Assembly (NCBI GenBank): GCA_900764695.1
Contig: CAAFOY010000084.1
Coordinates: forward strand, 29,739-93,738
DNA: 64,000 nt
Origin: Lachnospiraceae bacterium
Lineage (GTDB): Bacteria > Bacillota_A > Clostridia > Lachnospirales > Lachnospiraceae
Direction of reading: 5' to 3'
In this document: in pieces, positions 58,254 to 62,854 of the stretch
Position numbering within the stretch: position 1 is the stretch's first letter
Layout: every line of letters begins with the position of its first letter
The notes under the pieces: generated by a model
Database searches by the model: none
What the model was told of the DNA's origin: nothing
What the model saw: only the letters and a program-made list of their open reading frames with translations
Made by a program: the position numbers and the translations under genes

Positions 58254-58988
58254 TTAATAGACAACTATTTTAATTACAGCCAGTACAAACAAGTGAACCG
58301 GATAGAAAAGGTAGAAAAACCATTTCCATTTATATTTTCCTCTTTTTCCATTATAAAAGGCAATAGGAATAACACTTAAACTTCCAAGCCATTGAATACC
58401 CAAAGAATAAAATCCCATATTAAATACCATATTTCCAATTGCTTTTCCTATATGATATTCTCTAAATGTATAGAAAAAGAATATAAGTAAAATTCCTGTA
58501 TAACTGTATGTAACCTTTAGTATATATGCAAGTCCCATAGCGCCAAATACAGCAATTAACTGGGTAATCCAATTTAATGTACCAAAACTAAATACTTTTA
58601 ATAAGATTTTTGGATATCTTATTCTAAACATTGATATATTATATAAAATCCATATCATTATATAGCCTATAAGCAGTCCTACCATTACGCTCTGACCTAA
58701 TAGATTTATAAAATGTCCATGTATCATATCGTAAGGTACTTCCGAAACAACAGCAAATAGCAAAAGCCTGTATAAATGTTTTTTCTTATCTCTTGTGTGA
58801 TAAAATCCTTCAACAAGTAAAAAGCAATATATAGGAAAACTCAATCTTCCAATACTTCTCATTACCATATATAAACTACTGCCTTGCGCTAAAAAAGCCA
58901 TAGCAATATGGTCAATAAGCATAGTCACTACAGCTATAATTTTTAAGGCAAATGAGGATAGTCCATATTTATCCAAATCAATATACAT
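58254..58988 (-). CDS. TraX-family membrane protein
   Basis: 244 residues from ATG 58988 (AAAGGA lies 6 bases before it). Seven or eight hydrophobic helices with the TraX pattern: LKIIAVVTMLIDHIAMAFL, RSIGRLSFPIYCFLLVEGFYHTRD and YRLLLFAVVSEVPYD. TraX acetylates F-pilin in conjugative plasmids, but chromosomal Firmicute members are common and of unknown role. No conjugation genes are present here. Confidence 0.85.
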   Translation of the reverse strand: MYIDLDKYGLSSFALKIIAVVTMLIDHIAMAFLAQGSSLYMVMRSIGRLSFPIYCFLLVEGFYHTRDKKKHLYRLLLFAVVSEVPYDMIHGHFINLLGQSVMVGLLIGYIMIWILYNISMFRIRYPKILLKVFSFGTLNWITQLIAVFGAMGLAYILKVTYSYTGILLIFFFYTFREYHIGKAIGNMVFNMGFYSLGIQWLGSLSVIPIAFYNGKRGKYKWKWFFYLFYPVHLFVLAVIKIVVY

Positions 58989-59035
58989 CCCCATTCCTTT
59001 TTTATTTAATTCCTGAAAATTCATAGATTATGTAT

Positions 59036-59065
59036 AAGCCAATTACATTAAATTGTAATTGGCTT
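59036..59065 (-). terminator. Terminator-like hairpin behind the GH13 homologue
   Basis: 12-bp perfect stem AAGCCAATTACA (59036-59047) with TGTAATTGGCTT (59054-59065). The T-run is better on the plus strand. Confidence 0.6.
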
Positions 59066-59078
59066 TTCCTTTCTAGTA

Positions 59079-60899
59079 TTATTTTGCAATTAAAATTGCC
59101 ACACTCCTTGGTTGGGCAGTAAATATTCTGTCACCATCGTAAGCTGTATTTGAATCAGTTGTGCATAATAATTCCCATTTTTTCTTTTTTCTTGCTGATG
59201 GGATTCCAAACTTCTGTGGTTCCCAATGCATATTATAGGCTACATACACATCTGCCTCTTCGTCTCTTCCTGCCTCCATGGCGTATACTCCGCAATACAT
59301 AGCAGAAAAATGTCTGTTAATATGTGCGAAATCCGGATACCACGCTTTACTTCCATGATATGACATATCCGGAAGTCCATATGATTTATAGTCCATTAAT
59401 CTTAATTCTTCAGGCATGTGTAAAATCTTATGTTCTTTTCTAAACTTTATCATTGCCTTTGTATATGCAAATATTTCTTTTGCACATGCATTAGTATTCC
59501 AGTTTGTCCATGAAATTTCATTGTCAAGACAATAAGGATTGTTGTTTCCCTTCTGAGAATTGCACATCTCATCTCCTGCATAAATCATCGGTACTCCCTG
59601 ACTAAGTAATACTAATGCCAAAGCATTTTTCATCTGCTTCTTTCTAAGATCCATTACCTTTTTCTTGCGGGTTTCACCTTCAAATCCACAATTCCAGCTA
59701 TAATTGTATACTGCACCATCATTGTTATTTTCACCATTGTCTTCATTATATTTTCTGTCATATGAAACCATGTCAAACAATGTAAATGTGTTATGATTTG
59801 CCACATAATTTACATAGGCTACTCCCGGTGGATTTGCCTTAATCTTATATGAAATGGTATTAAGCATATCCTCATCCCCTTTAAGGAATCTTCTTGCTGT
59901 CACCATAAAATCATCATTAAAATTAGCAAGGTTCTTTATTTCAGGTCTGTCATTATAAAAATCAGTATCTGCAGCAAAACTATATGTAAAAATCTTTGTA
60001 TCTGATAACAAATTATCCGTCTGAATCATCTTCATAACCGCCGGCTCACAATTTGCATGAATTCCATCTATGTGATAACTCATAACCCAATAATGAAGGC
60101 AATCTAAAATTAGTGTTGGATTCGTTCCTTCCGGGAAGAAAAATTCCATTGAAACTTCTATTCCGTTCTTATGAAGTTCCTTTACCATATATTTAAATTC
60201 ATCTACTTCACTGCCTGATTCCTTAGCATAAGCGTAAGAAGCCTTTGGAGAAAAAATATATCCATCGGTATATCCCCAATAATTTAATTTTTCATTAGGA
60301 ATACTAAAGCTACCTTTCATTGACGTCGGCTGTTTTTCAACATATACTTCATTAAATTCATACGCCGGCATAAGTTCTATCATTGTAATTCCAAGTTCCT
60401 TTAAATACGGAATCTTATCTACAATTCCAAGATATGTTCCCGGATGCTTTGACTTTGCACTCTTATGCTTTGTAAACCCTCTTACATGCAAACGATATAT
60501 TATTGTTTCATCAAATGGATGATGCAACGGGCCATCACCTTCCCAATCATAATCATCATCTATAATTGTTCCTCTTAAATTTTGTGGCTGTACTCCCCAT
60601 TCTTTCTTTCCTGAAAGCGACTTTGCATATAAATCAGTTACAATATTTCCATCAACAATAAAATTATAGTCGTATTTTCTATAATCCAAACCTTCTACTG
60701 ACATTGCATGAACATTGCCTATAACCTGAGAAGCCTCAAATGATAATTGTTCTTCTTTTCCTGTCTCTCTGTCATAAAGAATCACTTTACACTGACTTGT
60801 ATTCTTTGCGGTAATTGCAAAATTAACTTTATTTCCAATTACGCTTGCCCCCATTATTAAAGGGTTTCCTCTTGTGATTTTTATATTAGTTATATCCAT
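59079..60899 (-). CDS. GH13_11 (glycogen-debranching GlgX/isoamylase-like) homologue without catalytic residues
   Basis: 606 residues, no signal peptide. N-terminal CBM48-like domain (about 10-95), then a barrel that aligns along its length with GlgX: ETIIYRLHVRGFTKH, KELGITMIELMPAYEFN, LNYWGYTDGYIFSP, LLSQGVPMIYAGDE and the C-terminal beta domain. The active site is lost. The region with DVVxNH reads MEFFFPEG (251-258). The nucleophile segment FRFDLA reads IHANCE, giving Asn 283. The acid in AEPWD reads TYSFA, giving Tyr 306. The final His-Asp reads His-Asn 370. The domain B insert is also nearly absent. Hydrolysis of alpha-glucans is therefore very unlikely; a binding or regulatory role is inferred. 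Start ATG has AAGGAGG. Confidence 0.9.
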   Translation of the reverse strand: MDITNIKITRGNPLIMGASVIGNKVNFAITAKNTSQCKVILYDRETGKEEQLSFEASQVIGNVHAMSVEGLDYRKYDYNFIVDGNIVTDLYAKSLSGKKEWGVQPQNLRGTIIDDDYDWEGDGPLHHPFDETIIYRLHVRGFTKHKSAKSKHPGTYLGIVDKIPYLKELGITMIELMPAYEFNEVYVEKQPTSMKGSFSIPNEKLNYWGYTDGYIFSPKASYAYAKESGSEVDEFKYMVKELHKNGIEVSMEFFFPEGTNPTLILDCLHYWVMSYHIDGIHANCEPAVMKMIQTDNLLSDTKIFTYSFAADTDFYNDRPEIKNLANFNDDFMVTARRFLKGDEDMLNTISYKIKANPPGVAYVNYVANHNTFTLFDMVSYDRKYNEDNGENNNDGAVYNYSWNCGFEGETRKKKVMDLRKKQMKNALALVLLSQGVPMIYAGDEMCNSQKGNNNPYCLDNEISWTNWNTNACAKEIFAYTKAMIKFRKEHKILHMPEELRLMDYKSYGLPDMSYHGSKAWYPDFAHINRHFSAMYCGVYAMEAGRDEEADVYVAYNMHWEPQKFGIPSARKKKKWELLCTTDSNTAYDGDRIFTAQPRSVAILIAK

Positions 60900-61219
60900 G
60901 CTGCCTCCTTGATTTGCTGACCATTTTTATCATAAAAATCTGTAAGTAAACTTAAGCTTTTGTTGTTTACGCAATACATTATTGCTTATTACAGACCCTA
61001 ATACAAATGTAATTATATCATAGTAAAAATATAAGAGAAACCTTGAATTTAATTTTACATCCTTATAATTTTATTTTTCATTGTCACAATTGCTATTTTT
61101 CAAAATTTTATTTTCCTATTTATATGTATTTTTCACCGTTGCTTTAATAGATAAAAACTGATATACTCTAATTTACGGAAAATTTTTGAGTATTATAAAT
61201 TCATGAGAGGTAATATTAA
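60900..61219. other. 320-bp divergent promoter region
   Basis: AT-rich, between the GH13 homologue and the ABC-F gene. It contains the ABC-F promoter listed next. No attenuator or leader peptide of the kind found before resistance ABC-F genes was recognised. No gene. Confidence 0.6.
61139..61167 (+). promoter_or_regulatory. Promoter of the ABC-F gene
   Basis: TTGCTT and TATACT are separated by 17 bases, about 50 bases before the start codon. Confidence 0.55.
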
Positions 61220-62854
61220 ATGATAAGTACAAGTAATGTTTCATTGAGATTTGGCAAGAAAGCCTTATTTGAAGACGTAAATATTAAATTTACACCGGGT
61301 AACTGTTACGGATTAATTGGTGCTAACGGTGCCGGTAAATCAACATTTTTAAAAATTCTCACAGGTGAACTTGAGCCAACAAGCGGTGAAGTTATTATAA
61401 CTCCGGGTGAGCGTCTTTCATTCTTAAAGCAGGATCATTTCCAGTATGATGAATATACTGTTCTTGATACTGTTATTATGGGTAACCAGAGATTATACGA
61501 AATTATGAAAGAAAAAGATGCCATTTATGCAAAGCCTGATTTTAGTGATGAAGATGGAATCCGTGCTTCAGAATTAGAAGGTGAGTTTGCAGAAATGAAC
61601 GGATGGGAAGCTGAAAGTGATGCCGCTACTCTTTTAAATGGTTTAGGTGTAGATACAGAATACCATTACAGCACAATGAAAGATTTAAACGGTAATTTAA
61701 AGGTTAAAGTATTACTTGCCCAGGCATTATTTGGTAACCCTGATATTCTTCTTCTTGACGAACCTACAAACCACTTAGACTTAGATGCTATCGGATGGTT
61801 AGAAGAATTCTTAATCAATTTTGACAACACAGTTATTGTTGTATCTCATGACAGATACTTTTTAAATAAAGTCTGCACTCAGATTGCAGACATTGATTAT
61901 GCTAAGATTCAGCTTTATGCCGGAAACTATGATTTCTGGTATGAATCAAGTCAGTTAATCGTTAAGCAGATGAAAGAAGCTAACAGAAAGAAAGAAGAAA
62001 AAATCAAAGAATTGCAGGACTTCATTCAGCGATTCAGTGCTAATGCTTCTAAATCAAAACAGGCAACATCAAGAAAACGTGCTTTGGAAAAAATCGAACT
62101 TGACGACATTAAACCATCAAGCCGTAAATATCCATATATTGATTTCCGTCCTGCCCGTGAAATTGGAAATGAAGTATTAACTGTAGAACATTTATCAAAG
62201 ACAATTGATGGTGTTAAAGTATTAGACGACATCTCATTTGTAGTTGGACATGAAGACAAAATCGCTTTTGTAGGTTCTAACGGACTTGCTAAAACAACAT
62301 TATTCCAGATTTTAGCAGGCGAAATGGAACCTGATGAAGGTTCATATAAATGGGGAATTACGACTTCACAGTCATATTTCCCTAAGGACAACACAAAAGA
62401 TTTCGATTGTGACGACATTATTGTTGACTGGTTAACACAGTATTCTGAGATTAAAGATCCTACATATGTAAGAGGATTCCTTGGAAGAATGTTATTTGCC
62501 GGCGAAGACGGTGTTAAGAAAGTTAGAGTTTTATCCGGTGGTGAAAAGGTTAGAGTTATGTTATCAAAGCTTATGATTTCAGGTGCTAATGTTTTAATTA
62601 TTGACGAACCTACTGACCATTTAGACATGGAAAGTATTACAGCACTTAACAACGGATTAATCAAATTCCCTGGCGTATTATTATTCTCTTCAAGAGATCA
62701 TCAGGTAGTTCAGACAACAGCTAACCGTATCATTGAAATTGTAAACGGTAAATTAATCGATAAAGTTACTACTTATGATGAATATCTTGAAAATGACGAA
62801 ATGGCAAGAAAGCGTACTGTATATACAATGGACGGTCAGGATTCTGATAACTAA
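61220..62854 (+). CDS. ABC-F ATPase (YbiT-like) with one degenerate ATP site
   Basis: 544 residues, two ATPase domains and no membrane part. ABC-F proteins act at the ribosomal E site. Domain 1 has Walker A GANGAGKST, Walker B LLLDEPTNHLD and switch VVSHDRYF intact, but its signature LSGGE reads LNGNL (156-160). The linker (about 235-310) has the coiled-coil sequence of the family. Domain 2 has signature LSGGEK intact (438-443), but Walker A reads GSNGLAKTT (Ala 357 for Gly) and the switch His is Arg 492 (SSRDH). Site one (Walker A of domain 1 with signature 2) is complete; site two is not. GAGAGG precedes ATG 61220. Confidence 0.92.
   Translation: MISTSNVSLRFGKKALFEDVNIKFTPGNCYGLIGANGAGKSTFLKILTGELEPTSGEVIITPGERLSFLKQDHFQYDEYTVLDTVIMGNQRLYEIMKEKDAIYAKPDFSDEDGIRASELEGEFAEMNGWEAESDAATLLNGLGVDTEYHYSTMKDLNGNLKVKVLLAQALFGNPDILLLDEPTNHLDLDAIGWLEEFLINFDNTVIVVSHDRYFLNKVCTQIADIDYAKIQLYAGNYDFWYESSQLIVKQMKEANRKKEEKIKELQDFIQRFSANASKSKQATSRKRALEKIELDDIKPSSRKYPYIDFRPAREIGNEVLTVEHLSKTIDGVKVLDDISFVVGHEDKIAFVGSNGLAKTTLFQILAGEMEPDEGSYKWGITTSQSYFPKDNTKDFDCDDIIVDWLTQYSEIKDPTYVRGFLGRMLFAGEDGVKKVRVLSGGEKVRVMLSKLMISGANVLIIDEPTDHLDMESITALNNGLIKFPGVLLFSSRDHQVVQTTANRIIEIVNGKLIDKVTTYDEYLENDEMARKRTVYTMDGQDSDN

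Follow-up and report, generated by a model that had tools for sequence, protein, structure and literature searches.

The 606-amino-acid protein encoded at positions 59079 to 60899 (minus strand) of the 64,000-nucleotide stretch of Lachnospiraceae DNA analysed here (the window) belongs to a family of GlgX/isoamylase relatives, here referred to as pseudo-GlgX, for which our computations show homology to these enzymes, loss of the catalytic triad and of domain B, separation from genuine GlgX at a single split of the tree, purifying selection, and retention of sugar-contact positions. Our preferred reading, held with about even confidence, is that the protein is a cytoplasmic, non-catalytic, α-glucan-binding relative of GlgX and isoamylase that regulates or organises glycogen; this confidence had been slightly higher and was lowered because the N-terminal domain is poorly conserved. 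The first-pass annotation of this DNA had described a debranching-enzyme pseudoenzyme; its observation is confirmed, and its interpretation is partly supported.

The gene was delineated by its open reading frame, its profile matches, and an alignment with isoamylase 1. As annotated, the frame is intact, running from an ATG start to a TAA stop, and the ribosome binding site is good, with the Shine-Dalgarno sequence AAGGAGG (60904 to 60910, minus strand) located 4 bases before the ATG. No signal peptide was seen by eye in the 606 residues. The protein belongs to the GH13 superfamily by its PF00128 (Alpha-amylase) score of 37 bits, against a gathering cut-off of 22. Its match to TIGR02100, the NCBIfam model of GlgX, has an E value of 4.9e-94, and the likeness to GlgX predicted from this profile is not a matter of chance; the score of 315.7 bits is about half the equivalog cut-off of 640.9 bits, which is not reached and which sets the protein apart from GlgX. 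Plant isoamylase 1 and bacterial or archaeal GlgX are its best solved relatives, and ISA1 and GlgX chains are among the nearest folds. In a single-sequence phmmer search, isoamylase 1 was the best match among solved structures (best E value, 2.3e-82), covering residues 7 to 256 and 285 to 588, with homology starting at residue 6 or 7 and the stretch around Asn283 being only weakly placed; the profile of our alignment A1 gives one continuous alignment that spans this region (E value, 1.4e-136). The likeness to GlgX and isoamylase thus extends over the whole length of the protein, as had been proposed. Alignments A1 and A2 and both structure models start at Asp2, and model numbers are therefore residue numbers minus 1.

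The catalytic positions were set by alignment with 18 intact GlgX proteins, and the residue numbers of the first-pass annotation proved exact. Asn283 (60051 to 60053) occupies the position of the nucleophile Asp, Tyr306 (59982 to 59984) that of the acid/base Glu, and Asn370 (59790 to 59792) that of the third Asp, all on the minus strand. The reported loss of the DVVxNH strand and of most of domain B was found as well, a bridge of 12 residues (residues 252 to 263; 60111 to 60146, minus strand) standing in the alignment where GlgX has 56. With these replacements, ordinary hydrolysis is predicted, close to certainty, to be absent from the window protein.

In a sample of 200 genomes from one Lachnospiraceae family, with 90% completeness requested, 171 contained a match. 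Subtracting 6 genomes with weak GH13 matches only and 4 with genuine GlgX only leaves 161 carriers of pseudo-GlgX, 99 of which were read as sequence and 62 of which were assigned by the E values and extents of their matches. Because a continuous match of the type seen in the family (E value of ≤3e-135) was present in only 7 of 245 genomes of a class-wide sample, its distribution seems to be mostly limited to Lachnospiraceae. The best 120 of 7993 matches in a protein database search all share at least 71% identity with the window protein, and among the matches listed, family members go by the names alpha-amylase, isoamylase, glycogen operon protein, and pullulanase-related glycosidase. Among 29 loci taken from species genomes, both the triad and domain B are missing from all except L029, which comes from the record of a spirochaete and is a genuine GlgX. 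PF00128 is matched at an E value of 0.001 by all 72 members of alignment A2, including the intact GlgX of L029. C-terminal additions seen in the family include tails of at least 15 residues, averaging 33% Lys plus Arg, in 36 of 129 members, with none on the window protein, and a 165-amino-acid extension in one member (L082:4908-7334) that by eye resembles an alkylated-DNA methyltransferase.

Next to the window protein itself, the loss of the catalytic residues could be followed across 147 aligned proteins of at least 500 amino acids, which were classed by domain B (shorter fragments, for example, L044, L154, and L157, were left out). Asp/Glu/Asp is present in 18 of 18 domain-B-bearing GlgX proteins and, as a full triad, in 0 of 129 domain-B-less proteins, 96 of which keep none of the catalytic residues, 31 one, and 2 two. 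Two database searches, from each of which the top 120 proteins were taken without regard to domain B, added 240 proteins, none of which has either domain B or a full triad; one of them, P0001, is identical to the window protein. The predicted loss of catalysis is common to the family, and Asn283, Tyr306, and Asn370 mark the near clade only; among the 129 members, the nucleophile, acid, and third-Asp columns lie at entropy percentiles 76, 96, and 44 (0 being the most conserved). The suggestion that these three residues might be conserved as a clade therefore holds among close relatives and fails family-wide, where the catalytic columns drift. In a tree built without the catalytic and domain-B columns, a single branch (SH-aLRT, 99) separates 70 of the 95 family representatives from the 18 GlgX proteins; GlgX serves here as the outgroup, and the split is not rooted proof of a single loss. 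Values of dN/dS ranged from 0.008 to 0.099 (median, 0.049) in 22 pairs of relatives, which were kept from 73 pairs with at least 72% identity for having a dS of 0.05 to 1.5. Of these 22 pairs, 15 involve a single group of six loci, and none includes the window gene, whose synonymous sites are already saturated against the nearest locus. The absence of the full triad, the single split, and this median together strongly support the earlier view of a maintained pseudoenzyme, and purifying selection on the homologues, which had been put forward as a check, was borne out.

The structure of Streptomyces venezuelae GlgX with acarbose provides a guide to what remains of the sugar-binding cleft. The contacts named for this complex at subsite -1 are Trp222, Tyr224, His271, Asp342, Glu378, Trp380, and His449, and those beyond -1 include Arg212, Glu470, Asn534, and Tyr536 (PMC9530166). 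Equivalents of these contacts, Arg212 excepted, were assigned from shared motifs and from their distances to the third Asp (20, 84, and 86 residues, identical in the window protein). For the contacts given in that source, the equivalents at -1 are Trp208, Tyr210, Glu257, Asn283, Tyr306, Phe308, and His369, in the same order, and those beyond -1 are Glu390, Asn454, and Tyr456. Trp208 and Tyr210 lie in a retained NYWGY motif (residues 206 to 210; 60270 to 60284, minus strand) and are found in 128 and 120 of the 129 members, respectively, the other 9 having Phe at the second position. Glu390 is present in 128 members, Asn454 in all 129, and Tyr456 in 121, with Trp in the other 8. All five of these positions rank within the 74 most conserved of 580 columns, which has a probability by chance of about 3e-5 at a conservation cut-off (0.93) that was chosen after the values were seen. 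Two further -1 contacts are only partly kept, with His at the His449 position in 70 of 129 members and Trp in 33 and Phe in 49 at the Trp380 position, and the positions of His271, Asp342, Glu378, and Asp450 are scattered. It is of note that position 390 is Trp in 17 of the 18 genuine GlgX proteins and Glu in both the family and S. venezuelae GlgX.

We also scored the columns that are invariant in the 18 GlgX proteins as kept or lost in the family. The heaviest loss falls on domain B, the nucleophile, the acid, and the segment that leads to the third Asp (1 kept and 16 lost of 27 columns in residues 252 to 310; 2 kept and 9 lost of 18 in residues 311 to 375). Well kept are the first strands (residues 128 to 251; 15 kept and 2 lost of 26), the loops of residues 376 to 462 (59514 to 59774, minus strand; 28 kept and 0 lost of 33), which comprise Glu390 and the WNCGxEG, GDE, and GNNNxYCxDN motifs, and the barrel end with the C-terminal β domain (residues 463 to 606; 59082 to 59513, minus strand), in which all 8 columns are kept and none is lost. 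The N-terminal β-sandwich, which stands at the place of CBM48 (residues 1 to 127; 60519 to 60899, minus strand), is weakly kept, with 4 columns kept and 4 lost of 22. A β-sandwich is predicted here by the model. At an E value of 0.001, CBM_48 is matched by 22 of the 72 members of A2 and not by the window protein; a contribution of this domain to glucan binding is doubtful. We had considered that erosion was confined to the catalytic half, with a CBM48-like domain aiding binding, and dropped this idea in view of the counts for the N-terminal domain and for residues 311 to 375. The glucan binding proposed in the first-pass annotation thus gains indirect support from the retained sugar-contact positions, and binding itself is our reading of them. 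As the retained loops and positions are conserved in genuine GlgX too, they may serve the fold, and part of these loops (379 to 393 in model numbering) is of low confidence in both structure models.

Glycogen synthase was detected in 198 of the 200 Lachnospiraceae genomes, a frequency at which a co-occurrence test against it has no power. It is present in 38 of 39 non-carriers, and pseudo-GlgX is therefore not needed for glycogen. Genuine GlgX (called at a best E value of <1e-200, with 16 of the 62 read as sequence) was found in 62 of the 200 genomes, type I pullulanase in 45, and GDE_C in 35. Branching enzyme was present in 41 of 41 carriers examined, a non-random pick, and in 33 of 39 non-carriers (P = 0.011, with kinship ignored).

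The gene next downstream of pseudo-GlgX in the window, on the same strand and 54 bases on, encodes a TraX-family membrane protein (58254 to 59024, minus strand), and the divergent upstream neighbour, also seen at related loci, encodes an ABC-F ATPase (61220 to 62854, plus strand; family name assigned by eye). Neighbours were counted at 85 family loci with flanks; the names DUF5662, TraX, and Peripla_BP_4 were confirmed with Pfam for example proteins, and the other names were given by eye. The window locus shows the TraX/ABC-F arrangement, and ABC-F lies directly upstream at 17 loci on the same strand and at 13 divergently, with an exonuclease-like gene in this place at 12. A substrate-binding-protein gene is located directly upstream on the same strand at 10 loci, L096, L098, L100, L103, L104, L106 to L109, and L115, the copy at L107 being Peripla_BP_4. 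A hairpin of 12 pairs (window positions 59036 to 59065) between the pseudo-GlgX and TraX genes is terminator-like on the plus strand only, and one such hairpin is expected by chance in this stretch. Inspection by eye of the 25 largest clusters of neighbours, with family members excluded, revealed no glycogen genes.

Several other explanations have to be weighed against a non-catalytic glucan-binding protein. The loss of all catalytic residues could point to a decaying pseudogene or a sequence artefact; this is scarcely credible given the open frame and good ribosome site, and for the family it is refuted by the dN/dS values of the relatives and by the 161 carriers among 200 genomes. An active enzyme whose catalytic residues have moved to other positions, performing debranching or another glycosyl reaction, would fit the invariant or near-invariant acids Asp278, Glu390, Glu407, Asp443, Glu444, and Asp459 and the many carriers that lack the three debranching enzymes searched. 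Apart from Glu390, however, each of these acids is likewise conserved in the 18 intact GlgX proteins, and since Glu390 corresponds to Glu470 among the contacts given for S. venezuelae GlgX, no acid is new; with domain B absent from all 240 database proteins as well, we consider this explanation very improbable.

By analogy with ISA2 and ISA1 of plants, the protein might be an obligate non-catalytic subunit of an active debranching enzyme. In line with this are the ISA1 and GlgX chains among its closest folds, the higher frequency of GlgX in carriers (58 of 161, versus 4 of 39 non-carriers; Fisher P = 0.0017, with kinship ignored), and, as observed at two loci, a genuine GlgX gene with an intact triad that lies no more than about 2 kb away from the pseudo-GlgX gene (L086:1142-3283 and L090:8716-10896). 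An obligate partnership with genuine GlgX is nevertheless unlikely, because 103 of the 161 carriers have no detected GlgX and 74 have none of GlgX, type I pullulanase, and GDE_C, though glycogen synthase is near universal; some of these absences may be false through genome incompleteness, and a different GH13 enzyme might act as the partner, so that a subunit of this kind has a small share in our estimate. Somewhat more plausible, if still clearly behind glycogen binding, is a sensor or adaptor in which the amylase fold is reused for another ligand or partner, working with DUF5662 or TraX and not with glycogen, since neighbours such as DUF5662, TraX, and housekeeping genes make a non-glycogen role possible. 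Directly downstream, in the same orientation, DUF5662 is found at 31 and TraX at 21 of the 85 loci, an 808-amino-acid database protein (P0225) is a family member fused C-terminally to DUF5662 (PF18907), and a periplasmic-binding-protein gene is directly upstream at the 10 loci named above; the Lys- and Arg-rich tails of 36 of the 129 members and the poor conservation of the N-terminal domain relative to GlgX would also fit. Against this, the frequency of DUF5662 in non-carriers (31 of 39) is close to that in the same non-random pick of carriers (36 of 41), and co-occurrence gave no tie to pseudo-GlgX; the mostly housekeeping neighbourhood may be plain vertical synteny, and the retention of Trp208, Tyr210, Glu390, Asn454, and Tyr456 would be left unexplained.

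Among known systems, the family differs from the GlgX/TreX enzymes of S. venezuelae (7u39 to 7u3d), Sulfolobus solfataricus (2vnc), and Escherichia coli (2wsk) in lacking the triad and domain B, and from plant ISA1 (9j60, 9xve, and 4j7r), its best sequence match among solved structures, which is an active enzyme with both. The closest functional likeness is to plant ISA2, described as a non-catalytic isoamylase that was maintained by selection after the loss of catalytic residues and that forms a complex with ISA1 (PMC12510319). The account given there calls the role of ISA2 and the reason for its retention not understood, describes an extra N-terminal β-sandwich and a surface site, SBS1, with two Trp residues, and says that the CBM48 of plant ISA1 lacks the glucan site. 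Pseudo-GlgX resembles ISA2 as described in that source in having lost catalytic residues under maintained selection, measured here in relatives and not in the window copy. Unlike ISA2, it lacks domain B, often has no GlgX in its genome, and is closer in sequence to ISA1 and GlgX than to ISA2; the extra β-sandwich attributed to ISA2 is also absent from the window protein, in which the isoamylase 1 homology starts at the N terminus. We read the likeness to ISA2 as convergent and of separate origin, our tree covering the family and bacterial GlgX.

In this regard, some reports on bacterial glycogen metabolism deserve mention. A c-di-GMP switch is described for S. venezuelae GlgX (PMC9530166), and we considered a similar one as a possibility for pseudo-GlgX. 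Butyrivibrio hungatei MB2003 glgX2, a glycogen debranching enzyme by annotation, is given with 648 amino acids and with no CBM48 listed in its entry (PMC5716241), and it appears with a log2 value of 3.27, cited here without the conditions compared, in a table of upregulated CAZyme genes (PMC6344614). Its listed size and missing CBM48 would fit pseudo-GlgX, a membership suggested by size and annotation. A gut survey used BLASTP thresholds of 20% identity across half of the length to count glycogen genes (PMC10395257), and criteria such as those quoted could admit pseudo-GlgX proteins. Inactive isoforms are mentioned in the archaeal table of a review (PMC11046441). Among the best-ranked matches in the open-licence literature, none was found that deals with a non-catalytic GlgX of bacteria or with the present family, which is weak evidence of novelty.

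Taken together, we propose for the glucan-binding reading that domain B was lost in the ancestry of Lachnospiraceae and selection on the catalytic residues was lifted, with the aromatic platform and the outer sugar subsites of the cleft being retained. The surviving half-cleft would hold an α-glucan chain of glycogen without cutting it, and glycogen might in this way be regulated or organised, for example, by the shielding of branch points or the presentation of chains to phosphorylase or branching enzyme. Sugar binding, glycogen as the sugar bound, and any scaffold or regulatory role are what we infer here. More tentatively, and at well below even confidence, the protein could be an independently arisen counterpart of ISA2, that is, a non-catalytic GlgX, found in most of the sampled Lachnospiraceae genomes, that acts as a glycogen-binding regulator without genuine GlgX and is annotated as a debranching enzyme. 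The family provides a second evolutionary case beside the plant non-catalytic isoamylases, in which the same catalysis was lost, domain B along with it, in organisms with simpler genetics. Given the enzyme names that its members bear, the debranching capacity of this gut family may be over-counted by annotation, and 74 of the 161 carriers have no match to any of the three debranching enzymes searched.
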